Source: Methylacidiphilum caldifontis
GTDB lineage: Bacteria > Verrucomicrobiota > Verrucomicrobiia > Methylacidiphilales > Methylacidiphilaceae
DNA: 64,000 bases
NCBI RefSeq assembly: GCF_017310505.1
Contig: NZ_CP065957.1
Coordinates: 1,054,001-1,118,000, forward strand
Reading direction: 5' to 3'
Shown piece after piece: positions 1 through 18,334 of this stretch. Numbering within the stretch: the first letter of the stretch is position 1; each line of letters begins with the position of its first letter. A program made the translations under genes and the position numbers. The notes beneath the pieces were generated by a model, which was given only the letters and a program-made list of their open reading frames with translations, ran no database searches and had not been told where the DNA came from.

Positions 1-234
1 GACATTTAAATTATAAGCTGGACCTCCCCATAGTATAGAGGTAAATGGACTATCCACATGAAGAGAGTTTCCAGGCGGGTTCAACGTCGCCGACCCACTC
101 ACTACTTGCCCATGACCAGGGAGTTGGTTCGGAGCAGGAGGAATAAAAGCTAAAAGCTTCTGACTACAAAGGCTAACTAAAAATAGAGATAAAAAAAGAA
201 ACTTCCTTAATTTTTTCAAAAAGTTCTTATTCAT
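1..234 (-). CDS. TpsA-like exoprotein, N-terminal part (runs off the window)
   Basis: Seventy-eight codons are visible, read leftward from an ATG at 232-234 with a G-rich ribosome site just upstream; the rest lies beyond position 1. The protein opens with MNKNFLKKLRKF followed by a hydrophobic stretch typical of a signal peptide. After it comes PNQLPGHGQVVSGSATLN, which matches the mature start of the two exoproteins at 10210-12444 and 12892-14985 (GAGQLPGNGT). A later ILWGG matches their ILWGS. This is the start of a two-partner-secretion (filamentous haemagglutinin-type) domain. I infer a third paralogue of that family, separated from the others by the glycan cluster. The C-terminal part cannot be judged. 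Confidence 0.7.
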   Translation of the reverse strand, partial: MNKNFLKKLRKFLFLSLFLVSLCSQKLLAFIPPAPNQLPGHGQVVSGSATLNPPGNSLHVDSPFTSILWGGPAYNLNV

Positions 235-4385: not shown

Positions 4386-7300
4386 ACCAAAGAAAAGGAA
4401 AAAAGTTTTTTTAATCTTGCTTTGACCACCGGCTTCGAAAAGTACTTCTCTACATGCTCAAGAGAAGCTTGAGAAAGACTTTCCCAAAGCCCCTTATCCT
4501 TATATAGCTTTAGCACAGCTTCAATAAACTCTTCCTTGTCATCACAAATAAAAGCGGTCTTTCCCCCTTCCAATTTCATCCCTTCAGCTCCAATGGTCGT
4601 TGTGACAACAGGAAGCCCAAAAGCCATCGCCATTCCTATTTTGCCTTTCATTCCCGCTCCAAACCTCAAGGGTGAAACAAATACCCTTACCTGCTCAAAA
4701 TAAGGGCCAAGCTCTCGAACATAGCCAATCGGATTAATCCCTGGTTGGGTTAACAGATCTTTGGACACAAACTCTTCAAGAAAACTGCCAACAATATCGA
4801 AAGTACAACCTGGGATCTCTTTCCGGAGGCTTCCCCACATCTCTGAAATAAAAAACTTTAAAGCATCTACATTGGGAGCATGACCAAAATAGCCAAGGAA
4901 TAAGATCCCCTTGCGGTCTTCCCACCGATTGGTAGGCGGACAGATCTCATGAATATTAGGAATCCAGACAACTTCTGTCTGAGCCCCAACTTCCTTTACA
5001 ACTTCCTTTATCTTTTCTTGCTCCTCCTCGGTAATGGCCACAACGACGTCCGATCCCACAAAGTTTGCCCTATCGATAAATTGGACAAGCTCCGCTTCTT
5101 TTTTGACCGCCGAATCTCCCGTAAGGGTTGCTTCTCTCTCTAACCTAACAAAAGCAAGGTCCACCGGGTCGTAAATGAGCTTAGCATTGGTCGCATAACT
5201 TCTAATCATTGGAATGAAGCTGTAGGCAACGGTTGGGGAAAAAACGTAGGCTAAAGAAAACTCCTTTCCCCATTGGCTAAGAAAATTCTCTGTCTTTTTT
5301 TCTCCGTAGATTATCTTTTTAACCCCTACTTTAAAAAGAACCTCTTCGTAGTGTTGAATCTGTTCATCCAGAATTTCTTCTTTAAACAGTTTAGCATGCC
5401 CTTTTCGATCCAACAGGGTAGCTAGGGAAACTTCCCATCCCAATTCTCGAATAATTTTTATAATCTCGAAAGTTCTAAAATCTCCTCCTCTTCGGTCAGG
5501 AACAAGAAGATAGTCGGTAAAAAGAAGGACTTTTTTTTGAGGAACGATTAAAAAGGAGTTATCCCAAAAAGAAAGTTCTGTTTTCCCCCTAATGATCCTA
5601 TTTTCCTTTTGCCCATAAACAAGGTAATGCCAAAGGGGATTGACTTGGGCTTCCTTGACGTCTGGATAACACCGCAGATAATAACGCAGATCAAAATCGG
5701 GATGCGGATTGCGCCCCTCCTTCCAACCCTGTTCAATAAAATGCAGTAGCGGATTGACTCCCGCCGCCTTGACATCGGCATTCTGTTCCAAGTAATAGGC
5801 GCTGTCAAAATAGCCATTAGGGTTCCTTCCCTCTTTCCACCCGTATTGAATATAGTGCAAAAGCGGATCAACCCCCGCCTCTCTCACATCCGGGTTATGC
5901 TTGAGGTAATAGGCTTGATCAAATAGAGAAGAACGCAAAATCTTAAAGTATTGACCCCATTGGAGAGAGTTTTCTTTGCCCTTTTGAGGGCTCTCCAAGG
6001 ATTCCATGCTCTCTAAAAAATGCTTCAATGGATTGATTCCCAACTGCTTTACTTCTGGATGAGTTTCCAGGTAAATTCCTACGTCAAAATCGGGATGCGG
6101 ATTGCGCCCCTCCTTCCAACCCTGTTCAATAAAATGCAGTAGCGGATTGACTCCCGCCGCCTTGACATCGGCATTCTGTTCCAAGTAATAGGCGCTGTCA
6201 AAATAGCCATTAGGGTTCCTTCCCTCTTTCCACCCGTATTGAATATAGTGCAAAAGCGGATCGAGCTGGCTTTGTTCAACATCGGGATAACTACTCCAGT
6301 AGTAACCGGGATCAAAAAGTCCAGATTCGATCAACCGGATCGCCGTTGCCTTAACCGGATCAACTTCTTCTTTTTTTCTCCATCCCCATTTTTTTTTCTT
6401 CTCTTTAGCCTCTAAATGAAACAGATCCCTGGAAATTTTAGCTATAAATTTTAGGTTAGCATTTCTAACTAAATGATTTTGTTTTAATTTTGCCTTAAGT
6501 TCTGAGATCTGATGTTTTGTGTCTTGGAGTTCTTCAATGAGCTTCTTTTCCTTACTATATAGCTGAGCAGTAATCTCTTTTTGTCTTCGGTAATAAGAAT
6601 CAATGAGGCCGAAAAGGTCATGGAAAGCCGAAAACTCCCTGGAAAGCCTATCCATCCCTTCCTTGGCTTGTTGGGGAAGGGGATGAACGGTCATCGATTT
6701 TAGGAGTTTCCAGCTTTCGACAAGGGGATAAAAAGCCGCTTGATTCTGTTCGAGGTCCTGGTCTTTAAAATGGGCATGCCGGTATTCTTCTTTCAGAAAA
6801 TTTCTTTTTAAAGCTAGAACAGCTTTTTCATCGTAGTGCAGCGATAAAACCTCGGCGATCCTTTGAAGATCCCTTTCAGGCTGTTGCAGGAACTGATCGT
6901 AATCGACTACCGCTTCCAAAAAAGGGGCATACAAAGGCCAAGGAGAAACATTATGGGAAAGCCATAGACAGAAAGACTTTACCACGGGAAACTGGTTTCT
7001 CTTATACAACGAATAACCCACGCTCAAAGGATTGCGAATAACCAGCAGATAAGAGGGCCTTATGCAGAGTTTTTCAAACACCGCATGCCAAAAACGAAGC
7101 AGGCGGATGGTTCTTGGATCCTTAAAAGTAAAATCCTTTCCTTTTAACTTCTGCTCGAGCAAGTCTTCAGCTTTTTTAAGAAGGGCAACCATCCTGGGCT
7201 CATGAAAGTCGAGGGAAGGAGGAGCAAAACTATCCCAGGATGAACCACTGGCAGCAAGGATTTCTTCGTTGATCTCCATGATGTCCTTGTCTTCCCAAAA

Positions 7301-7552: not shown

Positions 7553-9181
7553 TTATTCTTTTTCAAATACCATGATGTCTTGGAAAAAAACCCCAGGAAT
7601 CTCTTTCCAATTTCCAGGATAATGACAAAGAATTTTTAAAGAACTCCTTTGCAAAAGCAGCCCAAGAGCTTCTTCTTTAATTCCGATAGCCTCTTCTGGC
7701 ACTTTTGCCCATTCTGGGCAGAACCAGAAAGAAGAATCATAGGCAGGTTTACTAAATATCCACATGTTTTGGGCGGTCATATGATATTTTGCTTCTGCTT
7801 CTGCCCGAAAGGGCAAGCTTTTGTCATAAGCACGATCAAGCAAAAAAAAAGTGATGATCGCTCGGCCTTTTTTCTTCATTACCCGGCTAATCTCTGAAAA
7901 GTAAAAAAGACTATCTTCTTCAGAAAGATGCGTCCAAACGCTGAGGGCTGTAACAAGATCAAAAAATTCGTTTTCAAAGGGTAGTTTATCTTGAGTTTCA
8001 TTTTGAGGAGCATAATGAGGGTTTTTTGCCTTTAAAGGGAAAAAATGGAATTTTTCAGCTGGATAATGCCTCCGACAAAACTCAATATCCTCAAGCCGAA
8101 CATCAACCCCATAATAGGCTCCTTTTTCCCCCAGGAAAGGCTCAGAGGCAATCGCCAAAATCCCAGTTCCACAACCCATATCCAAAATGTGGTTATCTAC
8201 CTTGCGATCAAGATGTTGATAAAAAAGCGTTTGAAAGATCCCAATAACCTGTGCCCATTCCCCATAAGCATATTTTCCCCCTCGCCGGTTCTCTTCGGTA
8301 GGGATTAACCGGAGATTTTTCGTTCGGCGAAGGTGGGTCTTATCCAGGGCTAAATAAGCTTTATCCAGGGCATGATAAGAATAAAATCCAAGGAGATTTT
8401 TTTTGTGGCTTTCCTCAAACGCAGGCTCATTAAATACAACCCCCGTCAAGTAGGCTAGTTGCTCTTGAGTGGGAAGGTTATTTTTATCTTTGGAAAGCAG
8501 ATACCAGCTCTGCCTTGGATGATACCAGGGTAAACGGACAAAAAACAGGCAAGCTTCTTCGATCAACTGGGCGATTGTGGATGGCCGGTAACTTACAATT
8601 CCTGGATAAATCCATCCTTCAGCCTCAAAATCCTCCTTTCCCTCTATAAATGTTAAAGCAATCAGTCCTCGTGGCTTAAGAGACAAGCCAAAGGATTTGA
8701 GAGCTTTTTTAATCAGATCCTTTCCTGTGTGAGAAAAAATCGACTGAGCAAGAATGTAATCGAAATCCACGCCAAAAACATCGGTTTTGAAATCTTTGTT
8801 ATGATCAAAATGGGGTTTTTTTATCTGGATAATATCGCTACCAATCTCATTTTTGATGGCTTCTTCGATTAACCATTCACAAGGTTCTATACCAAAATAA
8901 TTTCCTTCCTCAAGATAGGGAATAAAAAGCTTGCCGGCGCGAAGAGAACCACAGCCAAAGTCAAGAAGTTTATGATGCGCTCTTAAACCTAAAGCACAAA
9001 GAAGCCTAAACTGGGTTGCTCCCATAAAATCATACTGGTCAGGATGCCCCACGTAGGCTTTATAATGGTGATCCCCAGGTTTTAACTGGGAAATATCATT
9101 ATTATTCTTCTTCTGTTCTCTCTTTCTTTTGTTTTCTTTTTGATCAAGAAGACCCCAAAAAATGTCCTTAAATCTCATCAA
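7553..9181 (-). CDS. Protein with two SAM-dependent methyltransferase domains
   Basis: A 542-residue protein with two complete class I methyltransferase folds. The first has LLDFGCGSLRAGK (about 72-84) as motif I and FDYILAQSIFSHTG as the post-I/IV region. The second has ILDMGCGTGILA (about 333-344), YYGVDVRLEDIEFC, and FDLVTALSVWTHL. The two halves keep similar acidic and SHTG/THLSEED helices, so they may have arisen by duplication. It is the first gene of the leftward glycan cluster, 96 bp before the sulfotransferase fusion. A role in methylating a surface glycan is inferred from context only. It is predicted cytoplasmic; no signal or membrane segment is seen. Confidence 0.75.
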   Translation of the reverse strand: MMRFKDIFWGLLDQKENKRKREQKKNNNDISQLKPGDHHYKAYVGHPDQYDFMGATQFRLLCALGLRAHHKLLDFGCGSLRAGKLFIPYLEEGNYFGIEPCEWLIEEAIKNEIGSDIIQIKKPHFDHNKDFKTDVFGVDFDYILAQSIFSHTGKDLIKKALKSFGLSLKPRGLIALTFIEGKEDFEAEGWIYPGIVSYRPSTIAQLIEEACLFFVRLPWYHPRQSWYLLSKDKNNLPTQEQLAYLTGVVFNEPAFEESHKKNLLGFYSYHALDKAYLALDKTHLRRTKNLRLIPTEENRRGGKYAYGEWAQVIGIFQTLFYQHLDRKVDNHILDMGCGTGILAIASEPFLGEKGAYYGVDVRLEDIEFCRRHYPAEKFHFFPLKAKNPHYAPQNETQDKLPFENEFFDLVTALSVWTHLSEEDSLFYFSEISRVMKKKGRAIITFFLLDRAYDKSLPFRAEAEAKYHMTAQNMWIFSKPAYDSSFWFCPEWAKVPEEAIGIKEEALGLLLQRSSLKILCHYPGNWKEIPGVFFQDIMVFEKE

Positions 9182-9284
9182 TGATAACTGGATAGTCTAT
9201 CCAGCATAGAAAAGGGAAAAGTCCTTGTCAAGTTGCTCAATAAAAAGGAATGCCCTTTTGCTTTCTTCATTTTTTGGTTATCCT

Positions 9285-9396
9285 CTACTCCTGGTCGTGT
9301 TGCCAAAGGATTGCTTATCACCCTTTCCAAAATTAGGGAGCGATCCATGAAATCTTATCCATTGAGGACCCAGCGCTTAAGAAAACTCCTTGTACG
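9285..9396 (-). pseudogene. Decayed fragment of a TpsA exoprotein gene
   Basis: About 110 bp align at DNA level, read on the minus strand, with the middle of the intact exoprotein gene near 11370-11490. Shared blocks include GAGCGATCCATGA, TGAGGAC-CAG-GCTT, GGATTGC and TTGTAC in the same order. Frame is not maintained. It marks a former additional copy downstream of the present two. The remainder of 9182-10209 holds no recognisable gene; its last 300 bp belong to the duplicated unit described separately. Confidence 0.6.
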
Positions 9397-10137
9397 TAAT
9401 GGATGGAATACTTCTGAGACCATAAGCTGATCAAAGCAGCTGGCTGGGTAATGACAAAAAGACTACTAAGCTAAGAGATAATTTTTCAGTCCTAATCCAT
9501 AAAAAATTGGGCAATAGGAAGAGTTCCATTAAAGCTGGAACCTAGGCCAGAAACATTCAGGCTACATTCCCAATTTGCCAAAGATTAGTTGTAGGCTTAG
9601 AAAAAAAAGAGCAAAGCCATGTTCATACCCCTCAATGCCTACGAAACTAAAAACCTCATTATCGACTTCTCTAGGCTTCTTGATCACTGTTCGGGGGGAA
9701 GTGGAAAAGTTTAAAACTATACCCTATGGTTAATCCCCATATTAATCCTTTTTAAGGAGACGATGAATATTTCCCCTTCACATTAATAAGCTATTTAATC
9801 CGTCTTTAAGGTATTGAGTACAAAATAGTCCTGAAAATAAAAAACTTAGGATTAAAAATTGGGAAAAGAAATTTTAATTTGTTTAGACTTAAGCTTTTCC
9901 CCTTTATAACCTTAAGAAAAAAGATCAAATCAATAAATGAAAAGGAAATTGAAACTCAAAACTCCCTAGCCTTATTTTACCAGGCTACCCCACCCATTAC
10001 AAATCCAATCCATGCTTAAAGAAAAAAAAATCCTTAAGATATCCCTATCCAAAGAAGCCAATTTCCATTGCTTTACCTTTTCTTTCCAAAACATTTCCTT
10101 TTTACACTTTGCCTCTCCCTTTCATCCTCAATAAAAA

Positions 10138-10161
10138 AAAGAGGCGGAAACCTTCCGCCTC
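10138..10161 (-). terminator. Rho-independent terminator of tpsA copy 1
   Basis: A 9-bp stem (10141-10149 with 10153-10161) with a 3-nt loop, G+C rich, followed on the minus strand by eight T. It lies about 50 bp past the exoprotein stop codon. Confidence 0.9.
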
Positions 10162-10209
10162 CTTTTTCTTCAATCCCATACAGGGTCTATTCCCACTAGC
10201 CTTTATGCC

Positions 10210-12444
10210 TTATTGCCAGGGGAATGGACTGGTCACCAAAGCAGTAGGTTTGATCACAGCATTATATACCCCAGGGAAAAGGGGAGACTCAGTAGCGGCA
10301 TAAACCGTTGCACTCACTGGTATCGAGGTATGAACAAGAGTATTCCCATCGGTCACAAACGGGGCATTAACAATGATTTGAGGTGCCGAAAGGAATATCC
10401 CCTGTAAATTTGGTCCAGCCACTGCTGTGTAACCATTATCAATCGGCACATTCACCGTCAAGGTTCCACCCGCCTTCAAGGCTACCCCTCCAGGAAAGAT
10501 GAATGAAGGACCAAGATGAAGAATATCAGTGCTTAAGGCATGATCGATAGGAGTACTACCCCCAACCGTCAAGTTGCCTGTAGCATTCACCAATAAGTTC
10601 CCTCCCGAATAGGGTTCAGCATTGGCTAATCCTGTGGGTATAAAAGACTTATTAATAAACGTAGAGTTGTGATCCGAATTTATGACCGCATTGCCATTAA
10701 CAGCCAGGTTAATAACATGAGGAGCTAGAGCACTAGTCACATCAATAGTTATATCCGTAGAACCAAAGTGCCCATTGGCAATATTAAACCCATTAAGAAG
10801 AGCATTGGTGGGACTGACTACATTGCGAACATCCCCCACCGTTGTCAGGTTAAACTTTTCTGTTGTAAGGACCCCATCACCCGTCAAATTACCCCCTTTA
10901 AAACTCACTACTTGGGAAATAATTGGCATGTCTAAGAAAAATGTCGACAGTGGCGCTGCTGCCGAAGATAAAGCAACAGCATGTAAGCCATGTGGATCAG
11001 CAATATTCAGCGCTCCTCCCACAAAAAATACATCCCCTGTCGCACTCGAAGCCCATATATTAATGTTCGGAATCCCCGTTAACTGGTGGGGATAGAGAGG
11101 AGCAAATAAGCTTATGGCAAGATTTCCTGGATTGGTAAAGCTATCTGTCGAGGCCGTTGGACTTGTAATATTAATCTGCCCGCTATTATAAACACTTCCT
11201 AGGGGATATTGCGTATTCAATCTACCCGGATTCTGAGCAAATAAATTAACAAAGTCATAGCCTGACATTATCCCTTTGTTAATCAATGCTCCCTGCTGAG
11301 CCCAAAGATCCACGTTCGTATTCCCTCCATTCATCACCGCTCCTGAATGGTTAACGATGCTCCCCGTAACCCATATCACTATCCCAGGAAGGGTTGCTGC
11401 GGGATTGCCGAGTATTGTTCCTGAATTAGAGAGCGATCCATGATAACTTACCGTCTGAGGACTCAGTGCTTGGGAAAAACTAATTGTACCCAAATTATAT
11501 AGCCAACCTTGCCACATCCCCATGCTCCCATAGCCTAAGCCCCATTGGATATCACTCCCACCAGGAAGAACAAGATTCCCATTTGTCGTTATATTCCCAG
11601 AAGACAAAAGAAACGAGCCAGCTGGAAAAACAAAACTACCAGATGCAGGACCTGAAATGGTAATAGATCCCGCTGTTGCCCCAGAAGTCGAATTGGTTAT
11701 CACACTAGGTGAAGTCACAAATGTATTAGCAAAAGCATAATACCCACTAAATGCATAGCCAGATATAATATTTACAGTTCCAGAAGAACTCGTAACCAAA
11801 GAACCCGACGTAGCAATCCCCACATTCACAGAAGGAGCTGCAATTAATATAGATGCATAATGTGCTCCTGAAGCCGTAATAGATGCCCCAGACTCTACAT
11901 TAACAAATGACCCGACTGTCGTGGGCGCCACACTCACAGTTCCATTAAAAGTCGAAGCTTGACTACTCAAATTATAGCCCAAAAGTCCAAGTCCCCCAGC
12001 AGCTGTAATTGAAGCATTAGGACCCACAATAACCCCACTCCCATTAGCCACATACACTGGGGTAGCACTGAATGTATGTATTGCTCCCATAATGTAGGAA
12101 GGACTGCCTGTCGTGTCTACATTTAATACGCTATTCCCCCCTATACTTAAGTAAGCAGAAGATCCCACATTAAAACCTGGACCACTCCCTGTAACATTCA
12201 ATGTCCCCCCACTACTCCCCCATAAAATTGCCGTAGGTCCGATAACTGACAGCGTAGCAGCATTGGAATATCCTGGTGGTGGTGTCATAGTTGTATAATG
12301 CGCAGTGCCAGCTACAATTGTCCCGTTTCCAGGTAATTGACCAGCTCCAGGCACAGCCCAGCTTTTTGCCCCCACCCCGATCCAAAGTCCAGCCGCTAAA
12401 ATTAAAAGCGCTTTATATAACTTCTTTAAAAATTTCCTTTTCAC
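10210..12444 (-). CDS. TpsA-family exoprotein (two-partner secretion), copy 1
   Basis: A 744-residue secreted protein starting at GTG (12442-12444), with GGAGG nine bases upstream. MKRKFLKKLYKALLILAAG followed by GAKSWA is a signal peptide with probable cleavage after SWA. Residues of about 32-210 form the two-partner-secretion domain: NGTIVAGTA, ILWGSSGGTLN, LNVDTTGSPSYIMGAI, VYVANGSGVIVG and GLLGYNLS match the FHA/HMW pattern. The rest is Gly/Ser/Asn/Thr-rich, as in a beta-helix. It has about sixteen N-x-S/T sequons. The last ~230 residues are almost identical to copy 2. Export through the TpsB encoded at 15182-16993 is expected. The function (adhesin or other) is not shown by the sequence. 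Confidence 0.8.
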   Translation of the reverse strand: MKRKFLKKLYKALLILAAGLWIGVGAKSWAVPGAGQLPGNGTIVAGTAHYTTMTPPPGYSNAATLSVIGPTAILWGSSGGTLNVTGSGPGFNVGSSAYLSIGGNSVLNVDTTGSPSYIMGAIHTFSATPVYVANGSGVIVGPNASITAAGGLGLLGYNLSSQASTFNGTVSVAPTTVGSFVNVESGASITASGAHYASILIAAPSVNVGIATSGSLVTSSSGTVNIISGYAFSGYYAFANTFVTSPSVITNSTSGATAGSITISGPASGSFVFPAGSFLLSSGNITTNGNLVLPGGSDIQWGLGYGSMGMWQGWLYNLGTISFSQALSPQTVSYHGSLSNSGTILGNPAATLPGIVIWVTGSIVNHSGAVMNGGNTNVDLWAQQGALINKGIMSGYDFVNLFAQNPGRLNTQYPLGSVYNSGQINITSPTASTDSFTNPGNLAISLFAPLYPHQLTGIPNINIWASSATGDVFFVGGALNIADPHGLHAVALSSAAAPLSTFFLDMPIISQVVSFKGGNLTGDGVLTTEKFNLTTVGDVRNVVSPTNALLNGFNIANGHFGSTDITIDVTSALAPHVINLAVNGNAVINSDHNSTFINKSFIPTGLANAEPYSGGNLLVNATGNLTVGGSTPIDHALSTDILHLGPSFIFPGGVALKAGGTLTVNVPIDNGYTAVAGPNLQGIFLSAPQIIVNAPFVTDGNTLVHTSIPVSATVYAATESPLFPGVYNAVIKPTALVTSPFPWQ

Positions 12445-12891
12445 GGTCTCGTTTCCTCCGTTACGTTTTAGCTCATATTTTATATCAGATCTATTTTTTG
12501 TTTTCCTTCTTCTTGGTATTACATAAAAATTAAAAAAATATTCTAAGCTTTGTTTTCCTATTTTTTTATACTTACATTCTTCCTCTCTATATTCTCAAGA
12601 AAAAAGATAAAACCAATAAATGAAAAGGAAATTGAAACTCAAAACTCCCTAGCCTTATTTATCAGGCTACCCCAGCCGGTACAAATCCAATCCCTGCTTA
12701 AAGAAAAAAATCCTTAAGAATATCCCTATCCAAAGAAGCCAATTTCCATTGCTTTACCTTTTCTTTCCCAAACATTTCCTTTTTACACTTTGCCTCTCCC
12801 TTTCATCCTCAATAAAAAAAAGGAGGCGGAAACCTTCCGCCTCCTTTTCCTTCAATCTCAAACAGGGTCTATCCCCACTAGCCTTTATGCC
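12445..12891. other. Spacer between the two tpsA genes
   Basis: It holds the ribosome site of copy 1, about 120 bp of A+T-rich sequence, and from about 12594 the 3' flank of copy 2, which repeats the flank at 9911-10209. No gene is seen. Confidence 0.7.
12814..12845 (-). terminator. Rho-independent terminator of tpsA copy 2
   Basis: An 11-bp stem (12821-12831 with 12835-12845) with a 3-nt loop, then seven T on the minus strand. It is the duplicate of the terminator near 10141, extended by two pairs. Confidence 0.9.
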
Positions 12892-14985
12892 TTATTGCCA
12901 GGGGAATGGACTGGTCACCAAAGCAGTAGGCTTGATCACAACATTATATGTCCCAGGGAATAAGGAAGACTCAGTAGCGGCATAAACCGCTGCACTCACT
13001 GGTACCGAGGTATGAACAAAAGTATTTCCATTGGTCACAAACGGAGCATTAACAATGATTTGAGGTGCCGAAAGGAATATCCCCTGTAAATTCGGTCCAG
13101 CTACCGCTGTGTAACCATTATCAATCGGGTTATTTACCGTCAAGGTTCCTCCCGCCTTCAAGTATACCCCACCAGGAAAGATGAATGAAGGACCAAGATG
13201 AAGAACATCAGTGCTTAAGGCAAAATCGGTAGGAAAACTACCCCCAACCGTCAAATTGCCTGTAGCATTCACCAGCAAGTGCCCTCCCGAATAGGGTTCA
13301 GCATTAGATAATCCTATTGGTGCCAAACTATTAATAAACGTAGAGGTGTCACCCGAATTTATGACCGCATTACCATTAACAGCCAGGTTAATAACATGAG
13401 GACCTATAGCAGTAGACGGATCAATTTCAATAGTCGTAGAACCAAAGGGCCCATTGGCAATATTAAACCCATTAAGAAGAGGATTGGTGGGACTGACTAC
13501 ATTTCTTACATTTCCCGCAACATCCAAATCAACAAAGTTAGCTGTTAAAACACCCAAGCCAGTCAGATTTCCAACAAAAAAATCTGCGTTGGTTGCCGTT
13601 AGATTGGTCCCTAAAAGCATCGTGCCAGTCGGGGATGTTTTAAAATGAGCTGTAGTACCGACAAGAGTAGCTCCCGCTAAGTTCACTGGCCCCGTTAAAT
13701 AGATCGAGCCGGTACTTGGATCAGCTGAAAGACTTAAATGATTGGCACTACTGCTATTGGTAATTTGTATCGTCCCACTGCTCGCTATACTTCCAAGAGT
13801 ATAAGGACCAAGCTGGTTAGGATTTTTTGCAGTAAGGGAGACAGCCGTATTTCCCATTATCGTTCCCATGTTATTAATTCCCCCACCCGCAGCTTTCAAA
13901 GTCGTATTAAATCCTGATGATCCAATGGTCGCCCCCACGTTGTTGGTAATACTTCCACCTACAGCAAGATGAATATTAGAACTACTTGCTATAATAGATC
14001 CATTATTGACTAATGAACCAGAGCTACCAGATGATGAAGAGAAATCTCCTGTAATCGTTCCATTATTGGTAAATGTGGAAGCAGCAAGATTAGAAGAATT
14101 CCCCGTACCCCATTGAGCTAACACACCTGTTAAAACAAGATTCCCATTTGTCGTTATATTCCCAGAAGAATATAAAAATGAGCTACTAGGATCTGTAAAA
14201 AATAATGATGAAGGTCCACTTAACGTAATCGATCCCGATGTCCCGGAAATCGGGGAGATCGAGCCAGCAGTAAAGCTACCATTTGATACATTATAACTTG
14301 CTACCGAATATCCCGAAAGAATATCTAAAAAAGTCATTCCAGAAAATGAAGTAGGAGTAGCCACAGCCACATTAACTTGGGGAGCAGCAACAAGTATAGT
14401 ATTTCCGGCTCCTACAGTAATACTCGCCCCGGATTGAATCGTAACAGCCCCTCCCGTAGTCATGGTCGGTGTCACACTCACCGTTCCACTAAAACTACTC
14501 GCCTGGGCCGAGAGATCATATCCCAAAAGACCAACGCCCCCCGCCGTAATCGTTGCTCCTGAACCAACAATCACTCCACTCCCATTGGCCACATAAATAG
14601 GAATACCCGTAGCAGTAATCGCACCCATAATGTAAGAGGGGCTACCCGTCGTATCCACATTGAGAAGAGAAGTAAAACCAGTAATAGTTAATGAAGCCGC
14701 CGATCCCACATTAAACCCTGGTCCTGAACCGGTTACATTCAAAGTTCCTGTAGAACCCCACAAAATCGCTGCATTACCACTTCCATTCAGAGTAGCTGCA
14801 TTAATATAACCAGGTGGTATAGCACTAGGACTATAACTACTAACTGTTCCCGATACAGTTGTTCCATTCCCCGGCAACTGTCCAGCACCCGGCACAGCCC
14901 AGCTTTTTGCACCCAACCCGATCCAAAGTCCAGCCGCTAAAATTAAAAGCGCTTTATATAACTTCTTTAAGAATTTCCTTTTCAC
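12892..14985 (-). CDS. TpsA-family exoprotein (two-partner secretion), copy 2
   Basis: A 697-residue paralogue of copy 1, also starting at GTG (14983-14985) behind GGAGG. The first 38 residues, including the signal peptide, are nearly the same as copy 1, and so are the last ~230, ending in LVTSPFPWQ. The TPS domain is recognisable: AILWGSTGTLNV, LLNVDTTGSPSYIMGAI, IYVANGSGVIVGSGATI. The central Ser/Thr/Gly-rich stretch differs. It lies 196 bp downstream of the tpsB gene on the same strand, with a terminator of its own. The family is secreted across the outer membrane by its TpsB partner. What it binds is unknown. Confidence 0.8.
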   Translation of the reverse strand: MKRKFLKKLYKALLILAAGLWIGLGAKSWAVPGAGQLPGNGTTVSGTVSSYSPSAIPPGYINAATLNGSGNAAILWGSTGTLNVTGSGPGFNVGSAASLTITGFTSLLNVDTTGSPSYIMGAITATGIPIYVANGSGVIVGSGATITAGGVGLLGYDLSAQASSFSGTVSVTPTMTTGGAVTIQSGASITVGAGNTILVAAPQVNVAVATPTSFSGMTFLDILSGYSVASYNVSNGSFTAGSISPISGTSGSITLSGPSSLFFTDPSSSFLYSSGNITTNGNLVLTGVLAQWGTGNSSNLAASTFTNNGTITGDFSSSSGSSGSLVNNGSIIASSSNIHLAVGGSITNNVGATIGSSGFNTTLKAAGGGINNMGTIMGNTAVSLTAKNPNQLGPYTLGSIASSGTIQITNSSSANHLSLSADPSTGSIYLTGPVNLAGATLVGTTAHFKTSPTGTMLLGTNLTATNADFFVGNLTGLGVLTANFVDLDVAGNVRNVVSPTNPLLNGFNIANGPFGSTTIEIDPSTAIGPHVINLAVNGNAVINSGDTSTFINSLAPIGLSNAEPYSGGHLLVNATGNLTVGGSFPTDFALSTDVLHLGPSFIFPGGVYLKAGGTLTVNNPIDNGYTAVAGPNLQGIFLSAPQIIVNAPFVTNGNTFVHTSVPVSAAVYAATESSLFPGTYNVVIKPTALVTSPFPWQ

Positions 14986-15181
14986 GGTCTCGTTTCCTCC
15001 TTTACTTTTTAGTGTTTATTGTTGAAAGGATCTTCCCTTTAATCATTTTCTTTTTGAGTTGTCAAAGAAAAAATAGAAATTTTTAAAAAATTTTTTCCCT
15101 TGAGATTCTTTCCTTTTTAAAACTATCCGCCTTCTCAAGACTTTACCCTTCTTTCTTTTATTTTCTTTGGAATAGCAACAA

Positions 15182-16993
15182 TTAAAAATTCTGTCTTAAA
15201 ACAAAAAGAATCGCCGCTCTTCCCCCCGTGGCATAATTTCTCTGGTCAACCGGCACATTGATCGACATCACCGGAAATGCCGCGTAAGCACTGAGGGTTG
15301 TTCCATAACGATGGACCAGGTCAACACTTACTCCCACATCCCCTAGGTATTGCCAAGCCGCTACCGCCCCCTGGGGCAGAAAATTAAACCGACTTCCCCC
15401 AAATTCCGTATATCCCGATGCATTGATGGTAAATCCTCCAAGATTCCATGTTGGCGAGTAAAGAACGCTTCGCCCTATAAAGCCCGAATCTCCAAAAAGA
15501 ACAGCCGGGTACCAAGCCGAAAGATTACCCATCCCCCCCAAAATCCACATGTCCATGATCGGCAAGGTGTTTTGCGAAATTTGCCCATAACCCGAAACCA
15601 TGAAATTCATCCCGTAAGGAAGAGACTGCACATAATCCAGGTTGATCTTTTCATAAGTAAAATAGGGATTGGGCGCCCCAGGAATACCATCGACATTCTG
15701 GTTTAAGATCTGAAAACCACCATGAGCATAGGAATGAACTACGTGCGCTCCGGCATCCCAATGGGCTGGTCTTCCAAAAGCGATAAAATTCTGGGTATAG
15801 GTCGATCCAATCTGAAAAGAATTATAATCTTGAGCATAAAGGTGTTGAAAAAGAAAATAATCCTGGAAATTGGTAAAAGCCATGTACTCATCAAAACCCC
15901 AACGGATCGATTCACTGGCATAAGCAACCTGTTGTCCATAGAGCTGCCAGTAGCGCAGATCACCCGAGCTTCCCGAGGCCAGAAAACTGGCTAGCTCAGG
16001 GGTCATCCCCGGAATGTTAAAAAGCCCCAAGGCATTAGGTCCCTCCACAAAATGCATCTGCCTATACATCACCCCATAAACCCCAAAGGGATTAGCCCAG
16101 GAAAGACCAAAGGTTCCCGCATAATAAGTTCCCCCATTACTGTAGGTATCAAAACCGGTCAGTCCATCGGAAAGATCTCCCGTGATCTGTAGTCCATAGC
16201 CTGGCCTGTAAGCGACCACAAGATCAGTTAAATACCGAGAAACAAATCGAGTTCCGTAGTTACCAAACATTACGGAGGTATCCCACGGCTTGGCTTCATC
16301 GAGCACATTGGGCGTAAAAGTCTGAACGGGCTGCGATTCCACGAACATTTCACTGGTAGCATAATCTTTACCCGGTTCAAAATGGACTTTAGGCTGTTCT
16401 TGCTGCCTGCGTGCATAGTTTTCGGCATTAATGTTGTCCCGGATCACATCCGAAGTTTGCACATCTGTTCTATTCTTTAACCCGTAGTAAAAAAGATTAA
16501 GCGGTTTTTCTGCATGAATAGCGCTGATTTTTCCTTCGATCACTTCTAACTCTACCTGGTGATCTTCGGCATAGGCCCTGACGGTCACAAGAAAATAGCC
16601 CTTCCTCTGGTAAAGCGTTTTTAGTCGATTCACAGCATCTTCTGGGCCAGTCGCCTCCCTTAAGCTTTTTTTAATTGTTCCGCTAGAAAGCACCGTATTG
16701 CCCGTGACAACATAGGTATAAGGAGGGGCAGAAACGATGATCGGCTTGGCTTTAAGCTCCCTGGGATTGACGAAACTGACCGGTTGCCTTTCTTTGGGAA
16801 GATTAAAAGGAAGAACCTCAGGTTGTTGATCAGCTTGGGCAATGGGATTTTCTTCCCTTTCAGGATTACTAGGCAAGGCTTCTTCTGTCAATTCATTGGT
16901 CTTTGAACCATTTTGGCCGTTTTGTTCTTCACCTGCAAAAGAGAAAGAACAAAAAAAAATGAGCAAAAAACCGATTTTAAACAAAAACCTCAT
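15182..16993 (-). CDS. TpsB outer-membrane transporter (FhaC/ShlB family)
   Basis: A 603-residue protein with a signal peptide (LLIFFCSFSFA|GEE, residues 10-23), a Gln/Glu-rich linker, a POTRA domain at about 85-160 (PPYTYVVTGNTVLSS, LYQRKGYFLVTVRAYAED, LEVIEGKI) and a C-terminal beta-barrel ending in LFVLRQNF, with a terminal Phe as outer-membrane proteins have. Such proteins move TpsA partners across the outer membrane. The usual loop-6 VRGY/F tetrad is not seen; the equivalent place appears to read NLSAWYPAVLFGDSG. Only one POTRA is obvious, where FhaC has two. It lies upstream of the two exoprotein genes on the same strand. Confidence 0.8.
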   Translation of the reverse strand: MRFLFKIGFLLIFFCSFSFAGEEQNGQNGSKTNELTEEALPSNPEREENPIAQADQQPEVLPFNLPKERQPVSFVNPRELKAKPIIVSAPPYTYVVTGNTVLSSGTIKKSLREATGPEDAVNRLKTLYQRKGYFLVTVRAYAEDHQVELEVIEGKISAIHAEKPLNLFYYGLKNRTDVQTSDVIRDNINAENYARRQQEQPKVHFEPGKDYATSEMFVESQPVQTFTPNVLDEAKPWDTSVMFGNYGTRFVSRYLTDLVVAYRPGYGLQITGDLSDGLTGFDTYSNGGTYYAGTFGLSWANPFGVYGVMYRQMHFVEGPNALGLFNIPGMTPELASFLASGSSGDLRYWQLYGQQVAYASESIRWGFDEYMAFTNFQDYFLFQHLYAQDYNSFQIGSTYTQNFIAFGRPAHWDAGAHVVHSYAHGGFQILNQNVDGIPGAPNPYFTYEKINLDYVQSLPYGMNFMVSGYGQISQNTLPIMDMWILGGMGNLSAWYPAVLFGDSGFIGRSVLYSPTWNLGGFTINASGYTEFGGSRFNFLPQGAVAAWQYLGDVGVSVDLVHRYGTTLSAYAAFPVMSINVPVDQRNYATGGRAAILFVLRQNF

Positions 16994-17079
16994 GGGAAAG
17001 TATTACTTGTAAAAGTTAACCCTTTACTTTTCAACCTGTTTTTAAGCTTAAATTTTTTTTCCCAAGAAATTTACAAGTC

Positions 17080-17472
17080 TTATTCTTCGACATACCGGAT
17101 GGCTACCGCATGGTAGGCGGGAATGTAGCGGTTAAGGTTAGCGTCGTACATTCCCCCCGAAGTATTGATGATAAAAGGATTGCCAATGGGAACCGAGCGA
17201 TCTTCTATGATCAAAGCTTCAGCTCCAAGTTCTCTTGCTTTCTGGCTTAAAGCGCTAACCAGTTCAGTCTTGGGGCTGTTTTCAGCTCCTCGAACATCCA
17301 TTTCAGCAATCTTCACATACTTTCTTTTGGGCTCTTTATTTAAAATTTCTACATAGCGGCTCGGGCTATAAGTTTCGCTTCCCAATCTCTTGACTCGGAC
17401 CGATTCCTGGTGAGCACAGCTCAAGAAAAAGAAAAGAAAGAAAATGCAAAAACCATAAGAAACAGAGCGCAT
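17080..17472 (-). CDS. Putative lipoprotein
   Basis: About 130 residues. MRSVSYGFCIFFLFFFLSCAHQ is a lipoprotein signal with the lipobox LSC|A, so the mature protein would be anchored by an acylated Cys. The mature part has a small alpha/beta look (YVKIAEMDVRGA, ALSQKARELGAEALIIED), resembling small periplasmic DUF4156-like lipoproteins. I chose the ATG at 17472, ten bases after the stop of the upstream parvulin gene; a longer frame from 17505 would overlap that gene and displace the signal. It is probably co-transcribed with the parvulin. Its function is not known. Confidence 0.65.
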   Translation of the reverse strand: MRSVSYGFCIFFLFFFLSCAHQESVRVKRLGSETYSPSRYVEILNKEPKRKYVKIAEMDVRGAENSPKTELVSALSQKARELGAEALIIEDRSVPIGNPFIINTSGGMYDANLNRYIPAYHAVAIRYVEE

Positions 17473-17482
17473 GGAAGGGTTA

Positions 17483-18334
17483 TTATGGGGTTGAAGAAGA
17501 AACATTCAAGGGGAAAATCTGAACTTGACTTGCAGCGATCAGTTCCTGGACATATTTCTTTAAGTTTTCCTGCTCGATCTGCTGAATTAACTGCGGTTTG
17601 AGTTCCTCGTAAGAGGGCACTTTCATGGGTCTAACCGCAAGAAGCTGGATCACGTCCCAACCCATCGAAGAAAGAATGGGGCCTCCCACCTCACCGGGTT
17701 TAAGTTTCTCGATTAAAGAATACGCGGAAAGTACAAGGCTCATGCTGTTCTGCCATCCCAACTCCCCTCCCCGGTCAGCGGTCTGTTTTTCTATGGATTC
17801 CATCGCCAACAAAGAGAAATTCTCTCCTTTTTTTAACCTCTCCATAATTTCAAGGGCTTTTCTCCTTGAGGGAAGCACAATATGCCTTAGCTTATATTCT
17901 ACCTTGGGAAAGTTTTTTAAAAGCTGGGCATAGCGCATCCGCAGCTCTCCTTCAGAAGGGGGTTTAACCTTGATTTTCTTCTGTACAACCAGCTCGGTTA
18001 GGGCTTTACGGTTAAATTCTTCTTGAGCTTTGAGTAGTTCCTTACTTTTCTCCAGGTCAAGCTTGAGGGCCTCTTGATAAAGAATTTCCTGTTGGACAAG
18101 GCTAACGAGGGCATTTTGGATAGCCTGGTTATCGGGCTTGGTAATCCCCGCTTTTTTTAGCTCCGCAAGCACGTAAGATTTTCTGATTTCCACCCCATTG
18201 ACCAAAGCAAGAACCTGGTCATCCTCCATTACCCCCGATTGAGAAAAAAGAGCGGCAAGACCAAGAACCCAAAAAAAGATAAAAAAGGAAAACTTCCGGA
18301 CTGAATTCATGGTAAGATTTAGAGGGAATTTCAT
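17483..18334 (-). CDS. Parvulin-type peptidyl-prolyl isomerase (SurA/PpiC-like)
   Basis: A 283-residue protein. A hydrophobic segment at about 14-33 is a signal peptide or anchor. The next region (LALVNGVEIRKSYVLAELKKAG) is the SurA-like N-terminal chaperone helix pattern. The parvulin domain lies at about 125-235: YKLRHIVLPSRRKALEIMERL, GENFSLLAMESIEKQTADRGGELGW and LKPGEVGGPILSSMGWDVIQL. Family members fold outer-membrane proteins in the periplasm, and TpsB, porins and exoproteins encoded nearby would be suitable clients (inference). It is followed ten bases later by a small lipoprotein gene. Confidence 0.85.
   Translation of the reverse strand: MKFPLNLTMNSVRKFSFFIFFWVLGLAALFSQSGVMEDDQVLALVNGVEIRKSYVLAELKKAGITKPDNQAIQNALVSLVQQEILYQEALKLDLEKSKELLKAQEEFNRKALTELVVQKKIKVKPPSEGELRMRYAQLLKNFPKVEYKLRHIVLPSRRKALEIMERLKKGENFSLLAMESIEKQTADRGGELGWQNSMSLVLSAYSLIEKLKPGEVGGPILSSMGWDVIQLLAVRPMKVPSYEELKPQLIQQIEQENLKKYVQELIAASQVQIFPLNVSSSTP

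Follow-up and report, generated by a model that had tools for sequence, protein, structure and literature searches.

Two neighbouring genes of Methylacidiphilum caldifontis, a thermophilic and acidophilic methanotroph, both encoding putative exoproteins (TpsA) of a two-partner-secretion (TPS) locus, are much alike at their ends and very different in the middle, and the question is which part of this pattern recombination has made. Is the middle a cassette that is swapped between copies with constant ends, or are only the ends exchanged, each middle being inherited on its own? The genes, here called A and B, lie in a stretch of 64 000 nucleotides (the window; positions 1 054 001 to 1 118 000 of contig NZ_CP065957.1), in a host genome that is a single contig of 2 254 698 bases; positions below are window positions unless the genome is named. 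A sequence-only reading of the window had taken the ends to be kept homogeneous by gene conversion and the middle to be an exchanged cassette, as in the antigenic variation of surface proteins. We are confident of a different history: gene conversion has homogenised the ends of A and B, and the centres have been inherited separately.

Both tpsA open reading frames and the blocks they share were confirmed, and the shared blocks extend a little further than had been marked out (from about 15040 to 9877). In 60-bp windows the DNA identity between A and B is 93–97% at the start codon and signal peptide, 46–72% in the N-terminal domain, 33–53% in the centre, and 84–100% in the final ∼215 codons and through most of the 3′ flank, with a drop-off at ∼12590. 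The protein identities are 41/42 for residues 1–42, 131/219 for 43–265, 84/213 for 266–480 and 177/217 for 481–697. The claim of constant ends around a variable middle is therefore borne out, since identity is uneven along the gene (permutation p = 1e-4 for the block structure, the floor of 10 000 shuffles). ‘Near-identical’, as the ends had been called, fits the signal-peptide region and the 3′ flank (92%) but is too strong for the C-terminus (82% at the protein level). The flank, 332 bp of non-coding DNA, has two copies in the genome; its other matches (two, of 31–35 bp) are inverted self-matches within the flank. A pattern scan found a terminator-like hairpin followed by T's in both flanks, in agreement with the shared terminator proposed earlier. 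Folded alone, the flanks are stabler than their shuffles (z −2.8 and −3.1), but a long single stem is the minimum-energy fold in the A flank only, the minimum for the B flank pairing part of it otherwise.

The decisive comparison is with another species of the genus (genome G002; the window genome is G000), which has the identical gene order tpsB–A–B–methyltransferase; its two copies are called A′ and B′. We counted four-way sites at which the copies pair within a genome (paralogue type) or between genomes (orthologue type). The paralogue:orthologue ratio is 32:2 at the 5′ end, 74:9 in the C-terminus and 29:3 in the 3′ flank, versus 17:109 in the centre. Four alignment settings left the direction unchanged (at its weakest the ratio was 23:10 in the flank and 24:58 in the centre). 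Phylogenetic trees, built from 14 of the 17 aligned copies (the three rows of G001, of the same genus, were left out because of an N run or assembly gap at the junction), give the same split. For the centre, A groups with A′ (support 100/99), and B, B′ and one copy of a further genome, G004, together form a B-type clade (100/100); joining A with B is rejected (approximately unbiased (AU) test, p = 7e-25). For the C-terminus, A groups with B (98/99) and A′ with B′ (100/99), and joining B with B′ is rejected (AU p = 1.4e-11). The centre of B is 72% identical to that of the G002 B copy and 61% to that of G004 copy 3, but only 45% to that of A. Synonymous divergence in the C-terminus is 0.18 between A and B versus 2.0–2.4 between orthologues. 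Because the centres pair by orthologue while the ends pair by genome, we infer that the ends were converted within each genome and the centres inherited by descent. The earlier claim that recombination between copies homogenised the ends thus stands, paralogues being closer than orthologues at the ends, the non-coding flank included. Its other half, an exchanged central cassette in the A/B pair, does not: judged by these alignments, the centre has been passed down vertically and has not been shuffled as a cassette. The segments are listed in the table.

Table. Segments and genes of the tps locus in the window, with the evidence for each
Feature	Position	Strand	Evidence or remark
Homogenised 5′ segment of A (upstream edge, start, signal peptide)	14880..15040	(-)	A–B 83–95% per 75-bp window; 15105–14880: 32 paralogue-type versus 2 orthologue-type sites
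Homogenised 5′ segment of B	12339..12499	(-)	A's 5′ segment at 2541-bp offset
A centre, diverged, inherited by descent	13540..14189	(-)	109 orthologue-type versus 17 paralogue-type sites; centres of G000 A and G002 A 100/99
B centre, diverged, inherited by descent, common to B-type copies of G002 and G004	10833..11593	(-)	B-type clade 100/100
Homogenised 3′ coding segment of A, from about codon 497	12892..13495	(-)	158/174 informative sites fit B over G002 orthologue, p 1e-4
Homogenised 3′ coding segment of B, from about codon 542	10210..10819	(-)	174/202 informative sites fit A over G002 orthologue, p 1e-4
Homogenised 3′ non-coding flank of A, terminator-like hairpin about 12822–12844	12560..12891	(-)	92% to B flank
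Homogenised 3′ non-coding flank of B, terminator-like hairpin about 10141–10162	9877..10209	(-)	92% to A flank
B N-domain segment matching paralogue D	11845..12264 (gene nt about 181–600)	(-)	permutation p 1e-4
tpsB, outer-membrane transporter of ShlB/FhaC type, 603 amino acids	15182..16993	(-)	upstream of tpsA, 196-bp gap
tpsA copy A, 697 amino acids	12892..14985	(-)	TPS/beta-helix fold (predicted structure)
tpsA copy B, 744 amino acids	10210..12444	(-)	TIGR01901 E 3.1e-4, under curated cut-off; 63% identity to A
Start of third, more diverged tpsA (copy C)	1..234	(-)	genome 1052132–1054234; 45% to A

The most probable history runs as follows. The A/B duplication predates the split of the Methylacidiphilum species compared, and both exoproteins presumably use one TpsB. 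Since that split, homologous recombination, presumably driven by RecA (an assumption), has copied three stretches between A and B, namely the start with the signal peptide, ∼200 codons at the C-terminal end and the 3′ flank, with the long exact matches in the ends of the tandem copies as the substrate for the exchange.

Modules have been exchanged among tpsA copies, so that this part of the sequence-only reading survives for the family but not for the central cassette of the A/B pair. B itself is a mosaic that shares part of its N-terminal domain with a paralogue, D, 420 kb away: of eight 90-bp windows across the segment, seven are 83–90% identical to D and one 78%, but identity is only 60–68% to A and 65–73% to the G002 orthologue. 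D is the one intact tpsA of a second tps cluster (genome 1480001–1500000), in which tpsB is in fragments and two further tpsA copies, E and F, are frame-broken; the cluster also holds second copies of a small lipoprotein-like gene and a peptidyl-prolyl isomerase gene (67%). In the trees, the centre of copy F groups with C-type copies (100/100) and its C-terminus with D and E (100/100). G004 carries a fresh recombinant: nt 496–810 of one of its copies match one neighbour at 100%, and nt 946–2070 match another at 98–100%, the two neighbours mostly differing from each other in those tracts (informative sites 99/105 and 153/154). This copy is not a plain assembly duplicate, since stretches near its ends are unlike either neighbour. 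As a negative control, the diverged copy C gave no mosaic signal in G000 or G002 (p 0.20–0.72, of which 0.20 and 0.24 are for the window's copy C against A), which places C outside the A/B exchange.

Three observations on the state of these copies may be added. In G004 (L046), the reading frame is broken in tpsB and in three of the four long tpsA copies. The tpsA breaks are single-base frameshifts within short runs of G; because the runs are short and tpsB is broken too, decay or sequencing error would account for them as well as switching. G003 has an intact tpsA frame (L047, 4849–7050), and no TpsB relative was found in that genome. In G002, an apparent remnant of a further tpsA (L045, 1666–1995) lies between the B copy and the methyltransferase gene.

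The sister genus shows an equivalent split with a different retained block, namely the N-terminal domain and not the centre. We aligned 11 copies of five genomes (G006 was left out), counted site patterns for three genome pairs and ran mosaic tests on seven of the 11 copies. In G008, G009 and G010 there are two copy types that differ at nt 151–800; the type is kept across genomes, while over the signal peptide, centre and C-terminus the copies of one genome resemble each other more closely. For G010 versus G009 the paralogue:orthologue sites by region are 17:0, 19:59, 63:11 and 51:6, and the remaining two comparisons agree (3/3); mosaic tests on the six copies gave p 1e-4 to 2e-4. Movement of the N-terminal block is indistinguishable here from homogenisation of the rest, because the order of the copies differs between genomes.

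Several points weigh against the history of converted ends and inherited centres. Within the B-type clade, B and B′ group to the exclusion of the G004 B-type copy at only 79/69, a weak pairing. The donor of the C-terminus is ambiguous, with 71 sites fitting A′, 52 fitting B′ and 33 neither. In the G004 B-type copy the mosaic test detects conversion over just a short tract (p = 7e-4; 28 informative sites), although in the trees the C-terminus of this copy groups with the A-type copies of G004 and G003 (100/99). The G001 copies suggest C-terminal homogenisation (92–100%), but with the N run at the junction, and in the sister genus the single copy of a fourth genome, G011, gives a weaker signal (p 0.04 and 0.009). 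The comparison covers one genome per species. Finally, the border between ends and centre may merely mark where divergence blocks recombination.

That last point, carried through, gives the alternative that survives best, and it refines our explanation rather than opposing it: concerted evolution would be neutral, the centre being kept solely since divergence blocks strand exchange, with no selected function. Conversion requires long exact-match runs, and seven of the eight longest exact A–B runs (33–54 bp) do lie within the homogenised ends. Against it, each genus keeps one differing block, in different places, and the centre of B is constrained, because its protein divergence between species is low (pN, the proportion of non-synonymous differences, 0.115) at saturated synonymous sites. 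We lean away from neutrality as the whole account, though it deserves to be taken seriously.

Much less probable is a locus of antigenic or phase variation, in which the central cassette is often swapped within the population and the ends serve as homology arms. Mosaic copies exist, the G004 recombinant with its 100% tracts among them; part of the B N-terminal domain matches a copy 420 kb off, and the broken copies E and F of the second cluster could be donors. But the A and B centres keep both lineage and position between G000 and G002, and no part of B is better conserved between species than its centre (208/253 residues versus 148/216 for the C-terminus). Nor is there a simple-repeat switch in 9000–17500, and phase variation by slippage was rejected on that ground: a tandem-repeat scan of this interval found no 7-bp array, only three short arrays with periods of 11, 14 and 16. 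In the 17 aligned copies of the genus no unit of 2–6 bases is repeated five times, and the only homopolymers over threshold (8 for A/T, 7 for G/C) are two G7 runs, in copy C of G000 and copy A of G002. Methylacidiphilum is, moreover, free-living. The antigenic variation offered by the sequence-only reading thus finds no backing in a repeat switch or in the lifestyle of the genus.

Similar ends and different middles would also result if the whole gene had been duplicated recently in this species and one of the two centres had then been replaced by a sequence of other origin. This scenario is contradicted by synteny and by the orthology of the centres: G002 has the same tpsB–A–B order with orthologous centres at equivalent places, and B-type centres are found in G004 (by tree) and G001 (by identity) as well. 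We consider it hardly credible. Least credible of all is purifying selection alone on the signal peptide and C-terminus, without recombination, which would explain the invariant family positions in the ends but is contradicted by the synonymous divergence given above, by the 92% identity of a non-coding flank, and by a C-terminal dN/dS (ratio of non-synonymous to synonymous divergence) between A and B of 0.74 (0.45–1.20), which indicates neither strong constraint nor positive selection.

If the ends have been converted and the centres kept, what do the two parts do? There is about an even chance, in our judgement, that the ends serve both proteins alike, in export or in attachment to the surface, and that the centre gives each its own specificity of binding or structure; selection or sheer divergence would then protect each centre from conversion. 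The converted C-terminal tract of A starts at ∼codon 497, and the match of its predicted structure to the EtpA helix ends at residue 489, which suggests a domain border nearby; the border is only suggested, because a looser match to HxuA runs on to residues 666–671 (root-mean-square deviation (rmsd) 9.5–9.8). Going further, one might see in both genera of these acidophilic verrucomicrobial methanotrophs a tandem TpsA set in which the export and C-terminal modules are constantly homogenised and a single ‘identity’ block is protected, and in which ongoing recombination provides diversity against phage or for cell–cell recognition in a free-living extremophile. This we think unlikely.

The identity of the genes rests on several lines of evidence. 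On the minus strand tpsB is followed by A, B and then the methyltransferase gene, with intergenic gaps of 196, 447 and 1028 bp. Neither A nor B has a credible match to a Pfam family. TIGR01901, the model of the FHA N-terminus, matches 15 of the 17 aligned family members at E-values up to 0.1 (best 1.2e-8); it gave no match for A itself, and the match for B is under the cut-off. The predicted structure of A (mean predicted local distance difference test score (pLDDT) 70) is mainly beta strand. Its top Foldseek match is the hemopexin-binding protein HxuA (E 1.1e-5), and structural comparison gave Z 23.7 for EtpA (305 residues aligned, rmsd 2.9), 23.5 for HxuA, 22.6 for HMW1 and 18.9 for FHA, versus up to 13.4 for other beta-helix proteins in the same list. 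The tpsB product has only weak matches of its own (POTRA_2, E 0.042; POTRA, E 0.092), and ShlB (PF03865) is found in five of eight aligned tpsB homologues at E up to 0.5 (best 3.1e-7). TIGR01901 in the family, the TPS fold modelled for A and ShlB in the tpsB homologues together identify the locus, by homology and prediction, as a TPS locus with one transporter and two exoproteins that are presumably secreted. PDB sequence searches (TpsB alone, A alone and profiles of both families) found no credible match; a cerato-platanin-like PDB match (E 0.0019 over 46 positions), the best of the profile and sequence searches, was taken as chance. A TpsB fold predicted from the single sequence was unusable (pLDDT 32). 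A system of contact-dependent inhibition (CdiA type) was rejected, as the C-terminus is the conserved part and there is no VENN motif and no immunity candidate. Minus-strand open stretches of at least 40 amino acids are absent between A and B, and five of 40–55 amino acids follow B.

Elsewhere in the window, a gene for a glycosyltransferase of 1024 amino acids contains an internal 244-bp segment in duplicate (88%; 5626–5869 and 6019–6262), so that the motif YYL..NADV..AG..PL.H recurs in the protein. Genes related to this one are located close to tpsA genes in G002, G003 and G004 and in the second cluster. Glycosylation of TpsA is a possible link between the two.

Matches to A at E-values up to 0.001 were found in 11 of the 40 genomes searched (the window genome included), from two genera of one family. 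A profile search of contigs in another genome collection returned 23 loci, including distant relatives outside the family; scanning the contigs with protein A alone gave no match. The distant TpsA-family relatives (L069–L082) are in Acidithiobacillus and other proteobacterial genomes or bins, with 28–43% identity in the best segment. Short tpsA fragments in Methylacidiphilum (e.g. in G002, G003 and G004) were left out of the alignment.

TpsA pairs and concerted evolution are both already known; what is new is a TpsA pair, in free-living methanotrophs, of which only parts evolve in concert. Among the matches listed in a search of the open-access literature there was no paper on this Methylacidiphilum TpsA family or its partial concerted evolution. 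The pair is a clear natural case, with opposite histories within one gene, recurring in two genera. The bacteria concerned have no known host, which suggests that an immune system is not needed for modular pairs of HMW-type TpsA proteins to evolve. The case is also a warning that the orthology of such exoproteins is unreadable from their ends, and short-read assemblies may break within the repeats shared by A and B.

Among known systems, prokaryotic duplicates under long-lasting concerted evolution, with paralogues within a genome recurrently more alike than orthologues, are described in PMC6053082. Unlike the duplicates covered there, only parts of A and B are concerted and one block is exempt; the string ‘Verrucomicrobi’ is absent from the main text of that paper. 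In Neisseria meningitidis, according to PMC3848433, tpsA recombines with nearby tpsC cassettes at a rate that the authors judged too low for antigenic variation, and its hypervariable part is a toxic C-terminus with an immunity open reading frame. As in this account of the meningococcal gene, a TpsA is remodelled by recombination with related copies; in contrast to it, the C-terminus of A and B is the homogenised part and has no candidate immunity gene behind it.

The closest known case is HMW1/HMW2 of Haemophilus. In non-typeable Haemophilus influenzae, the central binding domain of HMW1A/HMW2A is the most variable part (36% identity between the paralogues), and swapping of binding domains from locus to locus by gene conversion has been reported (PMC8262952 and PMC4849778). 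The HMW genes occupy dispersed loci that have B and C genes of their own, with phase variation by 7-bp repeats and a disulphide-closed C-terminal anchor (PMC4849778 and PMC5422565). Like HMW1/HMW2, A and B are a paralogous TpsA pair with a TPS-domain beta-helix, conserved ends and a diverged centre. Unlike them, they stand in tandem behind one tpsB (the second cluster having tpsB only in fragments), their locus is without a 7-bp repeat tract (9000–17500), and neither protein has any cysteine, so that a C-terminal disulphide anchor is excluded. Because A and B have neither dispersed loci with a transporter each, nor the 7-bp repeat, nor cysteines, we do not class them as an HMW system. The direction of change differs too: in A and B the centres stay in place and it is the ends that converge.

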